From Candidatus Mediterraneibacter intestinipullorum (lineage in GTDB: Bacteria; Bacillota; Clostridia; Lachnospirales; Lachnospiraceae), in the NCBI GenBank assembly GCA_019118665.1, contig DWYM01000019.1, forward strand, positions 1 to 64,000: a DNA stretch of 64,000 nucleotides, given 5' to 3'. The notes beneath the pieces are model-generated. The model saw nothing but the letters and a program-made list of their open reading frames with translations, made no database searches and was not told the origin of the DNA. Shown here piece after piece: positions 29,177 to 39,356 of this stretch. Both the position numbers and the translations under genes were made by a program. Numbering within the stretch: the stretch's first letter is position 1; every line of letters begins with the position of its first letter.

Positions 29177-29205
29177 TTGTTAGAAAGACATGCGTGTGAT
29201 ACACT
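29177..29205 (+). promoter_or_regulatory. Possible promoter of the moxR operon
   Basis: TTGTTA (29177-29182), 17 bp, TACACT (29200-29205) with a TGTGA just before the -10. Moderate match. Confidence 0.45.
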
Positions 29206-29318
29206 GGCATTGGGATCTGCCGTGTTGCTGTCAGCAGCCGGGGGTCCTGCACAGACAGAACAGATATCAGACGATCATAGAGATTCAGGGCAGTGTTTAT
29301 CTGCCGGGGAGTATGCCA

Positions 29319-30266
29319 ATGAATGAGAATATGTACAGCGCGCAGCGAGTGATCAGTGAAGTGGAGAAAGCAGTGGTGGGGAAGCGGGACGTCCTGACAA
29401 AGATCATGACCGCGATACTTGCGGGCGGGCATATCCTGATAGAGGATATCCCGGGAACAGGGAAGACGACCATGGCGCTGGCGTTTTCCAGAACAATGGG
29501 GCTGAAGGTAAAAAGGGTCCAGTTTACTCCGGACGTGCTTCCGGCTGATCTGACCGGATTTACTCTTTATCAGAAGGAAACAGGCAAATTCGTCTATCAG
29601 CCGGGCGCGGCGATCTGCAATCTGCTGCTGGCGGACGAGATCAACCGGACGTCTCCGAAGACGCAGTCAGCGCTCCTGGAGGTGATGGAGGAACAGCAGG
29701 TGACCGTGGATGGGGTCACGCACAGGACCGGAGAGCCGTTTATCGTCATCGCCACAGAGAACCCGGCAGGATCAGCAGGAACCCAGCTTCTCCCGGAATC
29801 CCAGCTGGACCGGTTTATGATCTGTGTCAGCATGGGGTATCCTACCGTGGAGGAAGAGATGGAGATATTAAAACGAGACCAGAAAAAAGGCAGGATCAGT
29901 GAGGAGACGGAACCGGTCCTTGACGCGGCGCAGCTTCTTGCCATGCGCTCGGAGGTGTCAGGGATATTTGTGCACAAACGCATTTACCGGTATATCGCGG
30001 AGCTGGCAAAGGCGACCAGGGAAAATGAGTGGACGGAGCTGGGACTCAGTCCAAGAGGAACTGTGGCGCTGACGGCAATGGCAAAGGCATGTGCCTGGAT
30101 GAAGGGGCGGGAGTATGTGATCCCCGCGGATGTACAGGAGGTATTCCCATGCGTGGCGGGTCACAGGATCTTTCTGAATATGAAGGCAAGGGTAGGGCAT
30201 ATCCGGGTGGATGAGCTGATCCGGCAGGCGCTGGAGAATGTCCCCGCCCCGGCGCTTAGAGGGTAA
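29319..30266 (+). CDS. MoxR family AAA+ ATPase
   Basis: MoxR proteins are hexameric AAA+ ATPases thought to act as chaperones for partner proteins. The 315-residue protein has Walker A EDIPGTGKTTMALAF (near residue 40), Walker B LLLADEINRTSPKTQ, sensor 1 IATENPAGSAGT, and the lid domain with LGLSPRGTVAL sensor 2. I chose ATG 29319, seven bases after GGGGAG; the ORF track starts 43 codons earlier in non-homologous sequence. It begins a MoxR-DUF58-transglutaminase-GNAT operon. The first three are a known conserved set. Confidence 0.93.
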   Translation: MNENMYSAQRVISEVEKAVVGKRDVLTKIMTAILAGGHILIEDIPGTGKTTMALAFSRTMGLKVKRVQFTPDVLPADLTGFTLYQKETGKFVYQPGAAICNLLLADEINRTSPKTQSALLEVMEEQQVTVDGVTHRTGEPFIVIATENPAGSAGTQLLPESQLDRFMICVSMGYPTVEEEMEILKRDQKKGRISEETEPVLDAAQLLAMRSEVSGIFVHKRIYRYIAELAKATRENEWTELGLSPRGTVALTAMAKACAWMKGREYVIPADVQEVFPCVAGHRIFLNMKARVGHIRVDELIRQALENVPAPALRG

Positions 30267-30271
30267 CGGTC

Positions 30272-31327
30272 ATGATAAAGAGGCTGGCGGGATATCTTGT
30301 GTTGCTGCTTGCGGCGGCATACTTGTATTTTATGTATAATGAAACAGTGATTTCGGGAATCCTTGTGTTCCTCACACTGTATCTGCCTGTGTCAGCGCTG
30401 TATCTGATCCTGATAAGGGGCAGGGTCGACGCAGACCTGGGACGAGTCCCGCCTATGGGCGAAGAGGGAAAAAAGATCCGTGCAGGGGCGGTTGTAAGAA
30501 ACAGATCCCACATGATGAACATCCATTATGAAGTGTTTCTCACATTGGGAAATACTCATGATAAAAAGCGGAAGAGGAGAAAGTATGCAGGGGCTGTCCC
30601 TGCAGGCGGTGAAGAGACTCTGTGGTGTGAATTTGAGACAGGGCGGTGCGGCAGTATCGAGGTGAGGCTTGACAGCATCAGGGTCTATGATTTTCTCGGC
30701 ATTTTTTTCCTGCGTAAGAAAGTGAAGAGGAGGGCGGCTGTCAAGATCCTGCCCCGGTTCAGCCTGATGTCCGTTGAGATCACAAGAAAGACAAGGGAGT
30801 TTCAGGCGGAAGCAGATGAGTATTCCGGAGAGAAAAGGGGAGACGATCCCTCGGAGATCTACCAGATAAGAGAATACCGGGTCATGGATTCTCTAAAGGA
30901 CATTCACTGGAAATTAAGCGCCAAAGAGGAAGAACTGATGGTAAAGGAGAGGGGATTTCCACTGGGGTGTACTGTCCTGATCTGGTTTGATGTAAGGGCG
31001 GGAAAGCTGTCTGCAGAAGGGTTTTCAAAGATGATCGAGAGGGCGGCGTCTCTGTCCGTCACCCTGGCAGCGGAGAAATGTATCCACATGGCGGCATGGT
31101 ATGAAGAGAAGAACGAGCAGATCGTGATGCAGAGGGTGAGGGATGAGGAAAGCGCCTGCAGTATGGTCTGGCGGCTTCTTGATCTGGAGCCTTGCAGGGA
31201 TATAAAAAAGAGAGACGCCTGCTACGAGAATACTTTCCGGGGCCGGGAGTTCAGCAGTATCGTAACAATAGACGGCGAGGGAAAGATCTGGAAAGACGGA
31301 GAGATGCCAGAACTGCTCCGGCTGTGA
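30272..31327 (+). CDS. DUF58 domain-containing protein
   Basis: The 351-residue protein has two N-terminal spans (LAGYLVLLLAAAYLYFMY and ILVFLTLYLPVSALYLIL) and the DUF58 core in the C-terminal half, with the signature DDPSEIYQIREYRVMDSLKDIHWK (quoted in parts: EIYQIREYR, DSLKDIHWKLSAK). DUF58 proteins are the usual partner of MoxR ATPases and contain a vWA-like domain. It lies 5 bp after moxR and 36 bp before the transglutaminase gene. The molecular role of the set is not known, though links to envelope stress exist in other bacteria. Confidence 0.9.
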   Translation: MIKRLAGYLVLLLAAAYLYFMYNETVISGILVFLTLYLPVSALYLILIRGRVDADLGRVPPMGEEGKKIRAGAVVRNRSHMMNIHYEVFLTLGNTHDKKRKRRKYAGAVPAGGEETLWCEFETGRCGSIEVRLDSIRVYDFLGIFFLRKKVKRRAAVKILPRFSLMSVEITRKTREFQAEADEYSGEKRGDDPSEIYQIREYRVMDSLKDIHWKLSAKEEELMVKERGFPLGCTVLIWFDVRAGKLSAEGFSKMIERAASLSVTLAAEKCIHMAAWYEEKNEQIVMQRVRDEESACSMVWRLLDLEPCRDIKKRDACYENTFRGREFSSIVTIDGEGKIWKDGEMPELLRL

Positions 31328-31363
31328 GACAGATGGGACGGATAAGGGGAAAGGGGTGATGGA

Positions 31364-33427
31364 ATGGGCAGAAAAAGAATGGGGATAAAAATATACCGGA
31401 AAACACCACGGGAAAAATCCGGGAGGAAAGAGCGTTTGTCCGAGGTGATCCTCTTTTTTGCTGCCGTCTCCTTCCTTGGGGCAGTGTGGTGGAATGCACT
31501 CCTCCCAGTGTTTTCCCCGGGAGCGGACGGCAGATGGCTGTATGGAAGTCTTGTCATTGTGACATTCGGGCTTACACTGCTTATATGCAGGGCTGGAGGC
31601 TGGACAGTGATCCCGGTCTTTCTGGCGTCGGGGATGTTTCTCTGGAGGAACAGGGAGTCAGTGGAAGCGCTGTTTTTCCAGGGCGGCAGCCTGGATACAG
31701 GACTCCCGGGAGTGGCGGCGGCTGTCCTGACGATCCCTGTGCTGGCACTGTGGATATTTGTCATCTGTTCCGGAAAAGGAAAGGTGGTTGCAGGCGCCGC
31801 GGCTGCTGCTCCGTTCATTGCGGCGGCATGCGCGGGTTATTTTCCTTCATTCAGGGATTCGTGGCTTCTTCTGTTTGGGGGCGTGATGTACTATGTTGCG
31901 GGTGCTCAGGGGAAAATGCCTTTTTTGAAGAAAATGACGGCCCTTCTTACAGCGGCGGGAAGCTTTGCTCTTCTGGCAGGGATTTCTGTTTTTGCAGGGA
32001 GATACCTGGATGTCGGACGAGAGGTGGAAGGCGGTTTCTACCAGACGACCCGAGAGACGCTTCGCACAGATCTGGTGGGAGGCATTGAGAGACTGATACA
32101 GAGTGAGACCGGAACGGACGGCAGTCCGGAGAGAACAGATGAAATGGAGGAGGAAACAGCCCAGGAGCAGCAGGAAGAAGCCGTAATGGCGGCGGAAGAG
32201 GAGATGGAGGGAACGGAAGCGCCAGGGGATGCCCTGGCAGGCACAGGGGGGAGCATGGACCGTCTGAAAGAGATCAGTTCCTTTGAGCCCGATCCCCTGG
32301 CGCAGTCCTCGGTGATTGCTGTGCAGGAAAGACCGCGCGATACTGTGTATGTGGCGCAGAGGACCGGAATTGCTTATACCGGGGGCGCATGGGAGGAAGG
32401 AGAGGTCCGGGAAGCGTTTCTTCCGGAAGAATATCTGGCATATCCTGAGGGACTGGATCAGCTTGAGGAGCTGTGCCGGGACTGGGAGATAAGTTCCGAA
32501 ACATCTGTGGGACGTCAGATCGACGAGGCTTTTGCAGCCCTGGCAGTCTATGATACAGAACCGGGTCCCACTCCCCCATCCGAGGATTTTGCGGAATATT
32601 TTCTGTTTGAAAACCATAGAGGGTTCTGCGTCCATTTTGCCACCGCGGCCGCGCTTCTTTACCGTATGTGCGGCTATCCGTCGGTATATGTGGAAGGGTA
32701 TGCGGTGCCGGCGTCCGCTTTTTATCAGGCGGAGGATGGATCCTGGCAGGCTCGTGTAGACGGAAGCATGGGGCATGCGTGGTGCCAGGTGTATGAAGAG
32801 GATGAGGGGATCTGGGTGAACCGGGAACATACTCCGGCGGCTTTGGGGAGCGGGGCAGAAGAGATGTCTGAGGCGGAGACGCGGACAGAGGCTGACTATG
32901 CGGCCAATATCATCCGGGGTTTGGGGATCGCGGCGGCAACTGTTATCCTGTTTCTGCTGCTGGCAGGAGCCTTTCTGCTCCAGGCGGCATTCAGGCGGAG
33001 AAAGCGCAGGGCAGGAATGGCCTATACTGCGGAAGGCAATGGGATCCCTGCAATGTACGATGTGATCCTGAGGACGGCAAAAGCCGCCGGGGGTCCAGGG
33101 AGAGACTCCGGGGACAGGCATGGGGCTGATCTTTCAGACGAGCTGGGTATTGAATGGCTGGAGTCTCTGAAAGAGGGTTCCCCGCAGGCTGGAGGGGAAG
33201 AATGGGACTGGCTTCATGAGCAGGTGATGCGCGCTCTTTTCTATCACCCGGATATGGGGAGGGAAGAATGGAAAAGGGCATACAGGCTGTGCCGGGGATT
33301 CTCAGACACCGTCAGAGCGCGGATGGGGGCGGGAAAACGGCTGCTCTTCCGGTATTTATACTGCCTTGATGTTTTTCCCCATGAAGATAAAAGAAGAAAA
33401 ACAGTAAAAAAGGAGAATGTTAAATGA
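31364..33427 (+). CDS. Transglutaminase-like domain membrane protein (TgpA type)
   Basis: The 687-residue protein has about six N-terminal membrane spans (residues 25-210), then an extracellular region and a transglutaminase/protease-like fold: catalytic Cys in HRGFCVHFATAAALLYRMCG, His in SMGHAWCQVYE, and an acidic residue in IWVNREHTP where relatives have Asp or Glu. One further span (AAATVILFLLLAGAFLL) and a cytoplasmic tail follow. An acidic linker (EEETAQEQQEEAVMAAEEEM) lies between the spans and the catalytic domain. It is third in the MoxR-DUF58 operon, its normal place. Probable substrate: envelope proteins; not shown. The start ATG follows AAAGGGGTGATGGA. Confidence 0.88.
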   Translation: MGRKRMGIKIYRKTPREKSGRKERLSEVILFFAAVSFLGAVWWNALLPVFSPGADGRWLYGSLVIVTFGLTLLICRAGGWTVIPVFLASGMFLWRNRESVEALFFQGGSLDTGLPGVAAAVLTIPVLALWIFVICSGKGKVVAGAAAAAPFIAAACAGYFPSFRDSWLLLFGGVMYYVAGAQGKMPFLKKMTALLTAAGSFALLAGISVFAGRYLDVGREVEGGFYQTTRETLRTDLVGGIERLIQSETGTDGSPERTDEMEEETAQEQQEEAVMAAEEEMEGTEAPGDALAGTGGSMDRLKEISSFEPDPLAQSSVIAVQERPRDTVYVAQRTGIAYTGGAWEEGEVREAFLPEEYLAYPEGLDQLEELCRDWEISSETSVGRQIDEAFAALAVYDTEPGPTPPSEDFAEYFLFENHRGFCVHFATAAALLYRMCGYPSVYVEGYAVPASAFYQAEDGSWQARVDGSMGHAWCQVYEEDEGIWVNREHTPAALGSGAEEMSEAETRTEADYAANIIRGLGIAAATVILFLLLAGAFLLQAAFRRRKRRAGMAYTAEGNGIPAMYDVILRTAKAAGGPGRDSGDRHGADLSDELGIEWLESLKEGSPQAGGEEWDWLHEQVMRALFYHPDMGREEWKRAYRLCRGFSDTVRARMGAGKRLLFRYLYCLDVFPHEDKRRKTVKKENVK

Positions 33428-33935: not shown

Positions 33936-33965
33936 TTGCAAGATGCTGTCGAACAATGCTATAAT
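33936..33965 (+). promoter_or_regulatory. Promoter of the DUF5717-DUF5716-TPR operon
   Basis: TTGCAA (33936-33941), 18 bp, TATAAT (33960-33965). A second TATAAT at 33924-33929 with TTGTAT 19 bp upstream may be a tandem promoter. Confidence 0.6.
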
Positions 33966-34021
33966 TCAAAGTAGCGTACTTTTGCCCTGGGCAGGAGAAG
34001 AATTTTTAGTAGGTGACTGAT

Positions 34022-37000
34022 TTGAAGAATAAGATCAAGCGATTTGCCAAAGGGGATTTTCACATCCCACAGCCGGAGATCATCTTTCCTGAGACGCGGA
34101 TCATCATGCGCGTCGGCGAGGGAGAAAAATACAGGGGGAGCTTCTCGCTCCAGAACCAGGGGGAGGGGACCATACGAGGCCTTGTATATCCCTCCTCTTA
34201 TCGTGTTCAGTGTGACGAGCAGGGCTTTGACGGCAATCCGGTCAATATTTATTATACATATGACGGCAGCGGGCTTTTGCCCGGGCATGTGGAGCACGGC
34301 AAATTCACGATTGTCTGCAACGGCGGGGAATATGACGTGGCGTTTTCCGCGATCATTGAAAAGCCTTTTGTGATGACCAGCTACGGCAAGATCCAGAGCC
34401 TGGAAGATTTTAAAAAGCTTTCGTTCCGGGATGCTGCTGAGGCGGTGAAGCTGTTCCGCTCCAGGGATTTCTATGAGATCCTGAAATACGAGGACAGGCG
34501 GATCCAGGCGCTCTATGACAATATGCGCAAGTGGGAGCTGGATCAGCAGGCGCTGGAAGAATTTCTCGTGGGGTGCAAGCAGAAGGAGAAGATATTCCTG
34601 ACTCTGGAGGAAGAGAGCAGGGCGTTCATCTCTCTTTCGGAAGCCCGCAAGGAGACGTTCACAGTCAAGAAGAATACATGGGGCTATCTGGAGATCGACG
34701 TGCGGACGGAGGGAGATTTTCTCTCAGTGGAGCACACGCGGGTCACGACAGAAGAGTTTATCGGAAATTCTTACCGGCTGGAATATTTCCTGAATGTTGA
34801 AAGGCTTCACGAAGGAAGCAACTTCGGCAGGGTTATCATGGAGTCGCCCTACGAGACTCTGACCTATGAGATCGTGGTGGAAAAAGATGTAAAAAGAGAT
34901 GAGGAGCGGCGCGCCAATGACAGGGAGTTCGCCGGGATCATACGCAATTATCTGAAATATGAGGGCGGAAGGATGGAGCTTTCCGACTGGGTGGAAGAGG
35001 CGGTGAGACGGATCAGCCATTTAAGGGACATGGATCCGAAAAATGAATTTTACCTGCTTTTCCATGCCCACATCTGCCTCATCGGAGGCAGGCCGGAAGA
35101 GGCGAAATGGCTCCTTGAATCCTATAATTATAACAGGTTTGCCATAGGAAAGGATGTGGAGCTGAGCTCGTATTATCTTTACCTGACGACACTGTTGTCC
35201 AGCGACACCATCGGACAGCGGAAGGTGGCGGAGGAGCTTTCGAGAACATTCATGAAGCATCCGGACAGCTGGAAGGTCCTGTGCATGCTGGTAGAGGTGG
35301 ATTCGGAGTATAAGATTTACAGCGAGAGGCTGCGCGCCCTGGAAAAGCAGTTTTACGAGGAAAAATCCCACAGTATCTGGTTCTATCTCCAGGCTTTCAG
35401 GTGTTTCCGGGACAAGAGTTCCTCCCTGAAGAAACTGGGAGAGTTCGAAGTGCGCGTCCTGCTCTTTGCGGTGAAACATAAGCTGATGACCAGAGAGCTG
35501 GCGCTTTACACGGCGAACCTTGCCAGCCAGATGAAAGTATTTGACAGACATCTCTATGATGTTCTTGTGCTTTCCTATAAAATATATCAGGAGGCTATGA
35601 TCCTTACATCTATCTGCACTCTGCTGATCAAGGGCAACTGTATGGACAGGAAATATTTTAAGTGGTATCAGAAGGCAGTGGAGGCAGAGCTTAAGATCGC
35701 GCAGCTCTACGAGTATTATATGGCGTCCGTTGTCCCGGGGCAGTTCCACAAGGCGCTGCCAAGGTCCGTGTACCTGTATTTTATGCACGGAAATTCACTG
35801 GACTACCATAAATGCGCGTTCCTGTATGCCAACCTGATCACCTATGAAGATGAGGCGAGCGAGATCTATGCTCATTACAGAGATGAGATGGAAGCGTTTG
35901 CCTGGAATCAGCTTGACCGCAGAAATGTGGATGAGCAGCTTCGTATCATATACAAGCGCTTTGTCGTAGAATCCGCGATGAATCCGGAACGAGTCAGAGC
36001 GCTGTATGATGTGTGCCATGCGTATTGGATCACGACAAAAGTTCCGGATATGAAGTATATCCATGTGATCGCGGAGGATGGGACGATCACCCAGAAGGTG
36101 CCCTACACGGAGAGCGGCGCCCGCGTGTTCCTGTATGCCAAGACCGACCGTCTCGTGTGGGAGGCAAAGGATGGCAGGCATTACACGGATTCCATCCCAT
36201 ATGAAAGCAAACGGCTCTTCTACGAGCTGCGCTACATGGATATGTGCAGAAAATATATCAATGGGCTGCGCAGAAACAGAGAGGAAGAGGAATCACAGGA
36301 ACTGACGCCGGATGTGGTGCGTGAAAAAGGCCTGGAGAACTATACGGAGGAAGAGCTGCTGGGGCTTTGCAGCAGGACAATCAGGGAAAACAACTATGAA
36401 AATGATGACTTCCTCACTTATGTGTGTTTTGAGCTGTTCAAAAAGCAGCAGTATGACAAAGTGATCCTGACCTATCTTGCCAACTATTACTGCGGGGCCA
36501 CCCCGGATATGAAGGTGCTCTGGAGGGAGGCGAGGGATTATGAGGTACATACCCACAAACTTGCGGAGCGGATCCTCACGCAGATGCTTTTCTCGGAGGA
36601 GCTCTTCCAGGAGGCGCAGATTTTTGAACAGTATTATGCGGAAGGCGCTTATTTCCGCCTGCAGCAGGCATATCTCTCCTATGTGTCCAGGGAGTATGTA
36701 GTTGAGGAGAGGAAGATCGGCCGCAGCGTGATCGACATCATCTGCCGCGAATATGAGAAAGGCGAGGATACTATCGACATCTGCAAGATCGCCGTACTCA
36801 AGTATTATTCCGGCAGGGAGTACAATGCGCAGACGCGCAGGACACTGAAGAAATTCCTTCAGGAGCTGTGCGCGAAGCAGATTTATTTTCCATTCTTCCT
36901 TTCTTATGAGAAGGACTGGCTGATCGAGCAGCAGCTCTGGGATAAAACACTGATCGAGTACAAGGGCCAGAAGGGCAGCAGGGTCATGCTCTATTATCAG

Positions 37001-37315
37001 CTCCAGAAAGGCGGAGAGGAGCCGGCGGACTACTCCACAGAGATCCTGACTCCCATGTACGAGAATCTCTATGTGAAGAAATTCGTGCTCTTTGCCAATG
37101 AAAAGCTGAAATATTATTTTAAAGAGACCATTGACGGAAATTCCTACCGCAGCGATAAAGAGACATGTGTAAGAGAGACAGAGCCCGGCGAACAGGGCAG
37201 ATACGGAAGGCTGAATGATATCCTCACGGAGTCCGGAGCCAAGCAGCGCAGGAAGAAGATGCAGGAATACGCGCTGGAGGATGCGGCGGCAGTCCATATG
37301 TTCACACAGGAATAA
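34022..37315 (+). CDS. DUF5717 family protein (very large, beta plus helical repeats)
   Basis: This is a 1097-residue protein without signal peptide or membrane spans, so cytoplasmic. Two beta-sandwich-like modules are visible: residues about 10-115 (IIFPETRIIMRVGEGEKY, SFSLQNQGEGTIRGLVY) and about 210-300 (FTVKKNTWGYLEIDVRTEG, TRVTTEEFIGNSYRLEYFL). The rest to about residue 1060 is helical and reads as degenerate TPR-like repeats. I assign DUF5717 from memory of Lachnospiraceae proteins. I chose TTG 34022, six bases after AGGTG; GTG 34013 would sit within that ribosome-binding site. It heads an operon with a pseudo-Hsp70 (15 bp on) and a TPR protein. The role is unknown; scaffold or co-chaperone is an inference. 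Confidence 0.82.
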   Translation: MKNKIKRFAKGDFHIPQPEIIFPETRIIMRVGEGEKYRGSFSLQNQGEGTIRGLVYPSSYRVQCDEQGFDGNPVNIYYTYDGSGLLPGHVEHGKFTIVCNGGEYDVAFSAIIEKPFVMTSYGKIQSLEDFKKLSFRDAAEAVKLFRSRDFYEILKYEDRRIQALYDNMRKWELDQQALEEFLVGCKQKEKIFLTLEEESRAFISLSEARKETFTVKKNTWGYLEIDVRTEGDFLSVEHTRVTTEEFIGNSYRLEYFLNVERLHEGSNFGRVIMESPYETLTYEIVVEKDVKRDEERRANDREFAGIIRNYLKYEGGRMELSDWVEEAVRRISHLRDMDPKNEFYLLFHAHICLIGGRPEEAKWLLESYNYNRFAIGKDVELSSYYLYLTTLLSSDTIGQRKVAEELSRTFMKHPDSWKVLCMLVEVDSEYKIYSERLRALEKQFYEEKSHSIWFYLQAFRCFRDKSSSLKKLGEFEVRVLLFAVKHKLMTRELALYTANLASQMKVFDRHLYDVLVLSYKIYQEAMILTSICTLLIKGNCMDRKYFKWYQKAVEAELKIAQLYEYYMASVVPGQFHKALPRSVYLYFMHGNSLDYHKCAFLYANLITYEDEASEIYAHYRDEMEAFAWNQLDRRNVDEQLRIIYKRFVVESAMNPERVRALYDVCHAYWITTKVPDMKYIHVIAEDGTITQKVPYTESGARVFLYAKTDRLVWEAKDGRHYTDSIPYESKRLFYELRYMDMCRKYINGLRRNREEEESQELTPDVVREKGLENYTEEELLGLCSRTIRENNYENDDFLTYVCFELFKKQQYDKVILTYLANYYCGATPDMKVLWREARDYEVHTHKLAERILTQMLFSEELFQEAQIFEQYYAEGAYFRLQQAYLSYVSREYVVEERKIGRSVIDIICREYEKGEDTIDICKIAVLKYYSGREYNAQTRRTLKKFLQELCAKQIYFPFFLSYEKDWLIEQQLWDKTLIEYKGQKGSRVMLYYQLQKGGEEPADYSTEILTPMYENLYVKKFVLFANEKLKYYFKETIDGNSYRSDKETCVRETEPGEQGRYGRLNDILTESGAKQRRKKMQEYALEDAAAVHMFTQE

Positions 37316-37330
37316 GGAGGGTGTCTTTCC

Positions 37331-38614
37331 ATGGGACAAGGCAGTATCATCGGTTATGAAATAAATGAGAAGACATGCCAGATCAGTTTTTACAACGATC
37401 AGGAACTGGAGCCGGACACGCTTGAGGTGGATTCGGACAACTATCAGATCCCTCTGATCATCGGGAAACTTCGGGATACATGGGCATACGGCAAGGAGGC
37501 AAAGCGTCTTGTCACCATAAAGGAAGGTTTTACGGTCACAAGGCTTTTGAGCAAGAGCCTTGCCGGGGACAGGATCGAATTCGGGGAAGAAACATACGAC
37601 GCGGTATGGCTTCTCTCCCAGTTCATCCAGATGTCTCTTCAGTCTTTCCCCGAAATCGAAGGGATCGTGTTTACCGTGCCGGCGCTGACAGAGGAACTGG
37701 CGCAGATGCTGAGGGGGATCGCCGTGCGCATGAATATTGACAAGCGGCATATCTTTATCCAGGATTACAAAGAAAGCTTCTGCAATTATCTGTTCTATCA
37801 GCCAAAGGAGCTGTGGCAGTACGACGCGGCGCTCTTCTGCTGCGACCGGAATGAGATCCGGGCTTATATGCTCCGGCGTCTCCGCCCGGGCCTGGGCGGC
37901 GGCAGGACCACTTTTGTGACAGTGGACGAGGTGGCCAGCGCCCATATGAAGGAACTGGCGGCAGTTTATCCGGTGCTGAATGAGGACAAGGCGAAAGAGG
38001 CGGATGCCATGTTCTGCAGGTTTATTGAGAGTGTGTTTGACAAGCGGATCGTATCTTCGGTATTTCTTACAGGAGAAGGCTTCGAGAATAACTGGTATCC
38101 AAAAGCGCTGAGAGTGCTCTGCAACGGACGGCGCGCCTTTATCGGGAACAACCTGTACAGCAAGGGCGCATGCTACACAGCTTACCGGAAGCTTTTCATG
38201 CACATCGAGAATCCGGTCTATCTGTCAGAGGACAAGCTGACAGACCAGATTACAGTGAATATGAGAGTGGATGGTCAGGAAATGTGGTATCCCATCGTTT
38301 CGTGGGGCGCTCACTGGTATGAGTCCAACAACCAGTGGGAAGTCCTTATGGAAGATGTAAAGGACATTGAATTCCACATCGAATCCCTGATCCAGGGGAA
38401 TGTGAGGACTGAGAAGATTTCTCTTGAAAAATTCCCCAGGCGCGCGGAGTACTCCATGCGTCTCCAGATCGAGACGCTGTTCCTGGATGAAAAGACATGT
38501 AAGATCACTGTGCGGGATGCGGGATTTGGCGATTTCTTCCCGCCCACGGATTTCCACGCGGAAAAGATCATACATTTAGGAGGCAATGATGGGAAATTTA
38601 ATTCTTTGTCATGA
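37331..38614 (+). CDS. DUF5716 family protein, Hsp70/actin-fold with degenerate nucleotide motifs
   Basis: This 427-residue protein follows the Hsp70 ATPase order but lacks its key residues. The phosphate-1 position reads IIGYEINEKTCQISFYND where Hsp70 has GIDLGTTNSCVAV. The GIVFTVPALTEE stretch aligns with the Hsp70 VITVPAYF. IFIQDYKESFCNYLF matches the INEPTAAALAY region. Phosphate-2, normally DLGGGT, is CCDRNEIRAYML. The adenosine site GGSTRIP is TGEGFENNWYP, followed by KGACYTAYR in place of AYGAA. A C-terminal beta region (residues 300-420) could match a substrate-binding domain. It starts 15 bp after DUF5717 following AAGGAGGGTGTC and overlaps the TPR gene. Confidence 0.8.
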   Translation: MGQGSIIGYEINEKTCQISFYNDQELEPDTLEVDSDNYQIPLIIGKLRDTWAYGKEAKRLVTIKEGFTVTRLLSKSLAGDRIEFGEETYDAVWLLSQFIQMSLQSFPEIEGIVFTVPALTEELAQMLRGIAVRMNIDKRHIFIQDYKESFCNYLFYQPKELWQYDAALFCCDRNEIRAYMLRRLRPGLGGGRTTFVTVDEVASAHMKELAAVYPVLNEDKAKEADAMFCRFIESVFDKRIVSSVFLTGEGFENNWYPKALRVLCNGRRAFIGNNLYSKGACYTAYRKLFMHIENPVYLSEDKLTDQITVNMRVDGQEMWYPIVSWGAHWYESNNQWEVLMEDVKDIEFHIESLIQGNVRTEKISLEKFPRRAEYSMRLQIETLFLDEKTCKITVRDAGFGDFFPPTDFHAEKIIHLGGNDGKFNSLS

Positions 38615-39356
38615 CAGACACGCGGCACATCCTTACGAGGTCACCAGGATACACAGCAGGATCTTCACCATCGAGGAGCTTTGCTATTATCTGTGTAATA
38701 ATCTCTATCTCATCGACTACACGATCATGAACGAACAGCTCTGTGACTGGCTTGACGAAGAGCTGGGCATGGAGAGCCTGGCGTCAGACCTCAGGGACGT
38801 GCTCCGGCTGAGGGGGTCCGTGGAGAAGTTCGTCCTGACGATCCTGAAAGCTTCGCGCATATACAGGGAGCCGGAGATGATACGCATCCAGAATGTGCTG
38901 GAGCATCTGAAGAACCAGAAGGATATCGAGCGTCAGAAATTCAAGGGGGACAACCTGTTGGAGAGCGGGGAGCTGGAGGAGGCGATCCTCGTGTACCAGT
39001 CTATCCTGAACCAGGAGAGAGATGAGACCGTGGACGATAAGTTTTACGGCCGGATCTACGCGGGACTGGGAGCGGCATACGGAAGGCTCTTTCTGTATCA
39101 GGAGGCGGCGCGCATGTATGACAGGGCTTATCAGATGTGCGGGGATAAGACGCTCCTCAAACCGTATCTGTACGCATCGTACAAATATATGTCCCTGGAG
39201 GAATATCACATCCTAATCACAAAGAATGAAGAATACATGGAGATCAACGCGCAGATGCGTCAGGAGCTGGACGAGCTCCGGAAGAGCCTGCCCGCGGAGA
39301 CCGATCTCTCTGTTATAGAAAAGTGGAAGCGGCAGCACCGCAGGAGCCATACTTAG
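38589..39356 (+). CDS. TPR repeat protein of the DUF5717/DUF5716 operon
   Basis: The 255-residue cytoplasmic protein has an N-terminal region (residues 1-110) that I do not recognise. Two or so tetratricopeptide repeats follow: GDNLLESGELEEAILVYQSIL and RIYAGLGAAYGRLFLYQEAARMYDRAY. It ends in a charged coiled-coil-like tail (MRQELDELRKSL). TPRs bind peptide tails or chaperones. I chose ATG 38589, five bases after TTAGGAGGC; the ATG one codon earlier crowds the ribosome-binding site. The 26-bp overlap with DUF5716 couples their translation. It is the last gene of the trio, before a new promoter. Confidence 0.82.
   Translation: MGNLILCHDRHAAHPYEVTRIHSRIFTIEELCYYLCNNLYLIDYTIMNEQLCDWLDEELGMESLASDLRDVLRLRGSVEKFVLTILKASRIYREPEMIRIQNVLEHLKNQKDIERQKFKGDNLLESGELEEAILVYQSILNQERDETVDDKFYGRIYAGLGAAYGRLFLYQEAARMYDRAYQMCGDKTLLKPYLYASYKYMSLEEYHILITKNEEYMEINAQMRQELDELRKSLPAETDLSVIEKWKRQHRRSHT

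Follow-up and report, generated by a model that had tools for sequence, protein, structure and literature searches.

The question raised by this locus is what three closely spaced genes, two of them encoding proteins that carry only a DUF name, might do together. They lie at positions 34,022 to 39,356 of a 64,000 nt stretch of Candidatus Mediterraneibacter intestinipullorum DNA (Lachnospiraceae; contig DWYM01000019.1), hereafter called the window, and encode a DUF5717 protein, a DUF5716 protein and a TPR protein. An earlier note on this DNA, written from the sequence alone, had likened the second protein to Hsp70 and read the three as a chaperone platform (pseudo-ATPase, client scaffold and TPR adaptor). 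Sequence comparison now shows that DUF5716 descends from H2, a member of a set of four paralogous Hsp70-family proteins encoded by an ancestral operon. The three genes are probably what is left of a dedicated machine of several lidless Hsp70s, a reduced core in which a pseudo-Hsp70 sits on a scaffold.

The ancestral arrangement is preserved in other families of the order, where the genes lie on one strand in the order DUF5717N-DUF5717C-Hsp70(H1)-GrpE-Hsp70(H2)-Hsp70(H3)-Hsp70/VWA(H4)-TPR. Profile classification of 57 fetched loci and the window found the set (A/B)-H1-G-H2-H3-H4, with A/B standing for DUF5717N/DUF5717C and G for the GrpE protein, complete, ordered and encoded on a single strand in 31 loci, which represent nine families (f4, f5, f7, f11, f16, f19, f22, f23 and f24). 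The remaining loci were incomplete or reduced, or ran into the end of a contig or of the fetched segment, and no classified gene was out of order in any of the 57 loci or the window. Pfam searches of one complete example, L023, identified a DUF5717N protein of 427 aa, a DUF5717C protein of 907 aa, H1 (HSP70, E = 1.8e-77), a protein of 645 aa whose C-terminal part is a GrpE domain (1.4e-14), H2 with both DUF5716_C (1.8e-25) and HSP70 (1.9e-16) in the same protein, H3 (HSP70, 2.5e-57) and H4 (HSP70, 2.5e-95; VWA, 1.3e-10), followed by the TPR protein and a protein designated X. Counts of HSP70-family proteins agree with this picture, as genomes with the cluster hold DnaK plus the cluster copies, and Lachnospiraceae have no cluster copies. 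The intact operon of four Hsp70s and a large GrpE protein appears to be undescribed, and is the most novel part of the system. Two irregularities were seen among the complete and partial clusters: H4 is split in two frames in genome G027 (L021:6340-8384, minus strand), and a TAA codon lies inside the H1 match range in G147 (L054; C1:965894-967576). Decay, a search artefact or an assembly error are possible causes.

H2 forms the bridge between DUF5716 and Hsp70. The window protein belongs to Pfam family DUF5716_C (337.7 bits; cut-off 34.7), and the DUF5716 profile aligned by hhalign with H2 over its entire length (99.7%, E = 4.7e-26) and with DnaK/H1/H3 (98.0%, E = 1.5e-13). H2 in turn aligned with DnaK/H1/H3 at 100% (E = 1e-58), and matched DnaK along the nucleotide-binding domain (NBD) and the substrate-binding domain (SBD) in the PDB set. 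An AlphaFold2 (AF2) model of DUF5716 (pLDDT 71.8, pTM 0.70) matched DnaK in Foldseek with E = 5.4e-16; Hsp70s filled the 50 best rows shown, headed by a lid-deleted DnaK, with Ssz1 of the ribosome-associated complex (RAC) third and Hsp110/Sse1 among the fifty. By both methods, the homology of DUF5716 covers NBD and SBD-beta, arranged as in Hsp70. In a maximum-likelihood tree, H1, H3, H4 and DnaK each formed one supported group, and DUF5716 formed one group beside the H2 of G027 (SH-aLRT 98), within the H2/DUF5716 side. The Hsp70 fold suspected earlier is therefore borne out by the structural and profile matches, and by an orthologue that stands in an operon with three active Hsp70s and GrpE.

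The residues needed for ATP hydrolysis have followed a different course in the paralogues. Phosphate-1, K70, E171, DxGGGT and D201 are kept at 86-100% in H1, H3, H4 and DnaK. H2 already has a defective phosphate-2 (D-Y/F-G followed by variable residues) and R in place of D201. DUF5716 has lost nearly all catalytic motifs, and what remains is confined to the GxGFE and GA positions close to the adenosine motif. None of the features of an active Hsp70 ATPase (phosphate-1 DxGTT, K70, E171, DxGGGT and D201) is found in it; at these columns, the exact choice of which depends on the alignment, it carries E/E/K (phosphate-1), L (K70), Y (E171), C/D/R/N/E (phosphate-2) and R (D201). Judged by these motifs, H2/DUF5716 have lost the hydrolysis residues that H1, H3 and H4 keep, and the term pseudo-ATPase used in the earlier note is apt. 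Its statement that the protein follows the Hsp70 order step by step holds in broad terms, although the window DUF5716 lacks about 100 residues of lobe II and also the helical lid (SBD-alpha), with only about 14 residues following SBD-beta versus 140 in DnaK. H1-H3 are likewise without a helical lid, and in H4 the VWA domain occupies its place. Loss of lobe II cannot be tied to loss of GrpE, since the H2 proteins of L036, L037 and L055 are equally short (412-433 aa) despite the presence of GrpE.

DUF5716 was found in the window genome and in 23 of 24 sampled relatives of its genus, the exception being a 75% complete assembly. Across 146 genomes sampled evenly from the order, DUF5717_N was detected in 75 and DUF5716_C in 71; both were present in 69, and one alone in 6 and 2, respectively. 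Three of the six DUF5717-only genomes carry an H2 missed by Pfam (L036, L037 and L055). Co-conservation of the two genes, as expected of one system, is thus strong (Fisher p = 9e-32, or 3e-27 without Lachnospiraceae, in tests that ignore shared ancestry). All 15 Lachnospiraceae genomes of the order sample carry both. Samples of the class (245 genomes) and the phylum (300 genomes), which hold few genomes of the order, returned only Lachnospiraceae, plus one sub-threshold trace at class level, so the system is essentially confined to one order. No relative was found on viral contigs.

The ancestral DUF5717 is often encoded by two genes, DUF5717N and DUF5717C, which are fused in Lachnospiraceae and several other families. 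Lachnospiraceae keep this fusion together with the pseudo-Hsp70 and the TPR protein, mostly followed by X. The gene content shows that the operon's active Hsp70s and its GrpE were lost in this family, with the remaining three genes retained under strong purifying selection (median dN/dS against relatives 0.025-0.046, dS 1.6-2.0; the ratios are approximate because NG86 estimates are near saturation). A genome of another family (G039, 96% complete) retains only DUF5717N-DUF5717C-H2, and no active cluster Hsp70 was found anywhere in it, its other HSP70-family matches being DnaK and two MreB-type proteins only. It reached the combination of DUF5717 and pseudo-Hsp70 independently of Lachnospiraceae. 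That two lineages kept the scaffold and the dead Hsp70 is the main argument for regarding this pair as the retained functional core. The window genome also encodes a second Hsp70 of 560 aa with a GIDLGTIN motif (L046:1001-2683, contig C15), which groups with DnaK and not with H1-H4, and which was not found in two genomes of the same genus (G001 and G018).

The first protein of the operon is a clear DUF5717 member (715.5 and 338.3 bits; cut-off 25). Its AF2 model (pLDDT 84, pTM 0.43) consists of two beta-sandwiches, a long alpha-solenoid that a beta insert divides in two, and a beta domain at the C terminus, the relative placement of the domains being uncertain because of the pTM value. The two sandwiches and the long helical body had been described in the earlier note; the two further beta domains (residues 667-731 and 975-1050) had gone unmentioned. 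Foldseek likened the sandwiches to domains of the ASH/MSP/PapD type (HYDIN, CEP192/SPD-2) and gave weaker, solenoid-type matches that include intraflagellar transport (IFT) and Ski scaffolds. The TPR assignment of the third protein is weak in the window (TPR_12, E = 8.5e-05, under the Pfam cut-off) and strong in its L023 homologue (2e-21), and residues 11-182 are homologous to the TPR protein of 393 aa that the full operon encodes (hhalign, 96%). No hydrophobic segment occurs in any of the three window proteins, in keeping with the earlier statement that they have no signal peptide, and a cytoplasmic location is therefore plausible.

Two membrane proteins accompany the genes in relatives. Protein X (about 400 aa; L069:2937-4130, minus strand, L023:14938-16146 and others) has two central transmembrane (TM) helices and a likely coiled coil, and follows the TPR gene in most Lachnospiraceae genera and several other families. 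It is absent from the window's genus (0/16 genomes), and relatives of X also occur in two genomes that lack DUF5717 (G025 and G033). Protein Y, a membrane protein of 375-440 aa with 2-3 TM segments and no convincing Pfam family, lies directly upstream of DUF5717N in about 10 loci from several families. X and Y were never found together in the fetched loci. Their presence suggests membrane association of the system in relatives.

On this analysis, the most likely function of the operon would be that of an Hsp70 co-factor or client-holding platform, in which an Hsp70-fold module that does not hydrolyze ATP is carried by an ASH-like/TPR-solenoid scaffold. DUF5717 would serve as a platform for assembly, with the pseudo-Hsp70 docked on it. 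The pseudo-Hsp70 could hold client peptides in its lidless SBD-beta, or modulate a real Hsp70 in the manner of Ssz1 or Hsp110, and the TPR protein may recruit clients or a partner. In the full operon the partner ATPases would be H1, H3 and H4, served by the operon's own GrpE; in Lachnospiraceae the housekeeping DnaK might take their place, or the complex may work without ATP hydrolysis. Where X or Y is encoded in the cluster it may tether the complex to the membrane, a possibility that does not extend by way of X to the window's genus. A fuller version, which we favour by a small measure, is that of an undescribed, order-specific and possibly membrane-associated machine. It would contain four Hsp70 paralogues without lids, of which three are ATPases and one a pseudo-ATPase, along with a GrpE of its own, an ASH/TPR scaffold and a TPR adaptor. 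On at least two occasions it would have been reduced to a core of scaffold and pseudo-Hsp70 that works without ATPases of its own, a bacterial counterpart of pseudo-Hsp70 complexes such as RAC. As to the chaperone platform of the earlier note, its pseudo-ATPase, Hsp70 fold and gene co-conservation are supported; the platform role itself, like complex formation, partner and client, we infer.

Several points weigh against this proposal. The AF2 model of DUF5716 is of moderate quality and reaches a TM-score of only about 0.5 to whole Hsp70s, with a large root-mean-square deviation, probably because the domains are shifted. The tree came from a quick search and has long branches in its H2/DUF5716 part. 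DUF5716 may still bind nucleotide without hydrolyzing it, the L023 operon yielded no J-domain protein, and neither interaction nor phenotype data on the predicted complex were found. DUF5716 alone gave no Hsp70 match in Pfam or in PDB sequence and profile searches, so the link to Hsp70 rests on the H2 bridge and on structure. The same empty direct searches could be taken to mean that the likeness is a chance of fold, and that the neighboring Hsp70 genes elsewhere are unrelated. This we consider next to impossible, since H2 unites DUF5716_C and HSP70 in one protein and follows DnaK through both domains, the profile alignment is full-length, the structural search (E = 5e-16) returned Hsp70s throughout its 50 best rows shown, and the flanking DUF5717 and TPR genes keep a conserved order.

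The main rival accepts the Hsp70 ancestry and holds that the protein is no chaperone any more, having become a building block of a scaffold that lies in the cytoplasm or, where X is present, is tethered to the membrane. Many proteins of the actin/Hsp70 fold have been reused for assembly. The wholesale loss of catalytic motifs and of part of lobe II in the window DUF5716 would fit such a change, as would the persistence of the core where the active Hsp70s and GrpE were lost, the two-TM coiled-coil X behind the TPR gene in many loci, and sandwiches and a solenoid that recall architectural axonemal, IFT and Ski scaffolds. However, an SBD-beta-like domain is retained, and the fixed place of H2 among active Hsp70s and GrpE in at least nine families speaks for a joint function there; a purely structural role is possible but, in our view, rather unlikely. 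The general similarity of the component parts to HSP70/GrpE conflict systems of the GAP1-N2 type (Kaur et al. 2020; PMC7159879) could instead mark the operon as a variant of these, that is, as a defence or cell-death module. For the L023 operon, Pfam returned neither a GTPase nor a GAP1 or effector domain, and PADLOC returned nothing for DUF5716 or DUF5717 and weak domain-level matches only for Hsp70/TPR homologues. Moreover, the genes occur in every sampled Lachnospiraceae genus with dN/dS of 0.03-0.05 and similar neighborhoods (purF-purB in part of the family), which is the behaviour of core genes and not the patchy turnover of defence islands; this origin is improbable. Confinement to a single order rich in spore formers and motile anaerobes might also suggest a chaperone platform specific to sporulation or motility. 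The phyletic profiles do not match: among the 15 Lachnospiraceae genomes that all carry the system, Spo0A is found in only 8 and flagellin in 12, and both are widespread in the system-free families f2, f17 and f21. Such a specialization is largely refuted, and we give it even less credence than a defence origin.

Within the window, the three genes form a compact unit (Table 1). The gap between DUF5717 and DUF5716 is 15 nt, and mostly about 15 nt in the named loci; the DUF5716 and TPR genes overlap by 29 nt, and the overlap is 29 or 26 nt in 72/72 named three-gene loci, in agreement with the earlier description of three coupled genes. The promoter expected ahead of them corresponds to a consensus match within the 151-nt gap between a GNAT gene and DUF5717. 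For the start of DUF5717, TTG at 34022 is kept in 15/15 relatives printed and is preceded by AGGTGA at 5 nt, and was preferred on both grounds to a longer form beginning at GTG 34013. The sizes given earlier, a first protein of 1097 residues and 1780 residues in total for the three open reading frames (1097, 427 and 256 aa), are correct.

Table 1. Features of the DUF5717-DUF5716-TPR operon in the window, and of related loci.
Feature	Position	Strand	Evidence or remark
Promoter-like TTGCAA-N18-TATAAT, extended -10 (TG)	33936..33965	+	10/12 consensus positions; pattern match only
Shine-Dalgarno-like AGGTGA, 5 nt 5' of TTG start	34011..34016	+	Sequence; kept in relatives
DUF5717 scaffold, 1097 aa	34022..37315	+	PF18984 E = 1e-214, PF18983 E = 5e-101; dN/dS median 0.035
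Beta-sandwich 1 of DUF5717 (residues 26-124), ASH/PapD-like	34097..34393	+	AF2; Foldseek matches to HYDIN, other ASH/MSP domains
Beta-sandwich 2 of DUF5717 (residues 193-288)	34598..34885	+	AF2; Foldseek
Alpha-solenoid part 1 (residues 294-665)	34901..36016	+	AF2; weak TPR/Ski3/IFT-type matches; TPR matches in L023 homologue
Beta insert (residues 667-731)	36020..36214	+	AF2
Alpha-solenoid part 2 (residues 736-969)	36227..36928	+	AF2
C-terminal beta domain (residues 975-1050)	36944..37171	+	AF2
DUF5716, pseudo-Hsp70, H2 orthologue, 427 aa	37331..38614	+	PF18980 6e-101; hhalign, Foldseek, tree; dN/dS 0.025
NBD remnant of DUF5716 (~residues 1-293)	37331..38209	+	Part of lobe II missing, catalytic residues lost
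SBD-beta-like domain of DUF5716 (~residues 306-416), no helical lid	38246..38578	+	Profile and structure comparison
TPR protein, 256 aa: conserved N-terminal domain (~1-100), TPR (~121-187)	38586..39356	+	TPR_12; dN/dS 0.046
Full operon example	L023:4676-13677 (genome G030)		30 further loci, e.g. L050, L057, L064, L083
Protein Y examples	L064:1183-2475; L061:14145-15440 (-); L052:16328-17650 (-)		

Directly upstream of the operon are genes for a MoxR ATPase, a DUF58 protein and a transglutaminase (window positions 29190-33427), followed by the GNAT gene. This trio is a common bacterial arrangement and apparently a separate unit. It was rejected as part of the system, since its architecture differs and the L023 cluster has no MoxR; nor does the full operon resemble a MoxR-vWA ternary system, in which neighboring genes for MoxR, vWA and a third component make up one unit, its own vWA domain being fused to Hsp70. 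A class I/II aminotransferase gene (PF00155) lies near the operon in 23 loci (L088:2424-3539, minus strand, and 22 others), often divergent and just upstream of DUF5717, and looks like conserved synteny without an evident functional link.

The window proteins are members of Pfam families (PF18980, PF18983 and PF18984) to which Pfam assigns no function, and no paper on DUF5716/DUF5717 or on a link to an Hsp70/GrpE operon was found in the open-access literature (preprints excluded), where one full-text match was unrelated; the earlier note had likewise known of no function. Lachnospiraceae are a dominant family of the human gut, and every sampled genus holds the operon, under strong constraint. 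Placement among the Hsp70s, together with the intact ancestral operon, makes of three uncharacterised proteins a chaperone system that can be tested. The relatives span a natural gradation between active Hsp70 and pseudo-Hsp70, and the independent reduction serves as an evolutionary replicate.

Compared with known systems, DUF5716 shares with DnaK/Hsp70 (PF00012), and with lid-deleted forms in particular, the NBD-SBD-beta order, the interdomain link region and the C-terminal beta domain, but has lost D8, T11-T13, K70, E171, DxGGGT and D201, along with the lobe II segment and the lid. Catalytically dead Hsp70 co-factors such as Ssz1 are, to our knowledge, known mainly from eukaryotes. Ssz1 of yeast RAC has an Hsp70 fold and SBD-beta, lacks a lid, does not hydrolyze ATP and is an obligate partner of another protein. 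As the third-best PDB match it offers a comparison of working mode, with no claim of membership at the sequence level; unlike Ssz1, DUF5716 is bacterial, has no known J-protein partner in the operon, and has DUF5717 and the TPR protein as its genetic partners. A similar comparison holds for the nucleotide exchange factor Hsp110/Sse1, an Hsp70 relative that serves real Hsp70s, binds ATP, and has long insertions and a lid, whereas DUF5716 is truncated, and nucleotide exchange in the full operon is likely the task of GrpE. The likeness to these two co-factors lies in structural similarity and in the company of Hsp70s and GrpE that relatives show. Besides a general paper on DnaK duplication (PMC11019930), the relevant literature is that on GAP1-N2 neighborhoods of firmicutes and actinobacteria, which combine HSP70, GrpE, a second HSP70 without a peptide-binding domain, and FNIII fused to TPR or DnaJ (PMC7159879). 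The combination of HSP70, GrpE, a second, reduced HSP70 and beta-sandwich/TPR parts in firmicutes is common to both. GAP1-N2 with a nearby TRAFAC GTPase, which defines those systems, is absent from the ten-gene L023 locus by Pfam, and the operon differs further in its four Hsp70s in fixed order and its family-wide conservation. The system is of the Hsp70 kind, with the GAP1-N2 systems as its nearest description, from which the L023 locus is set apart by the absent GTPase/GAP1 core.

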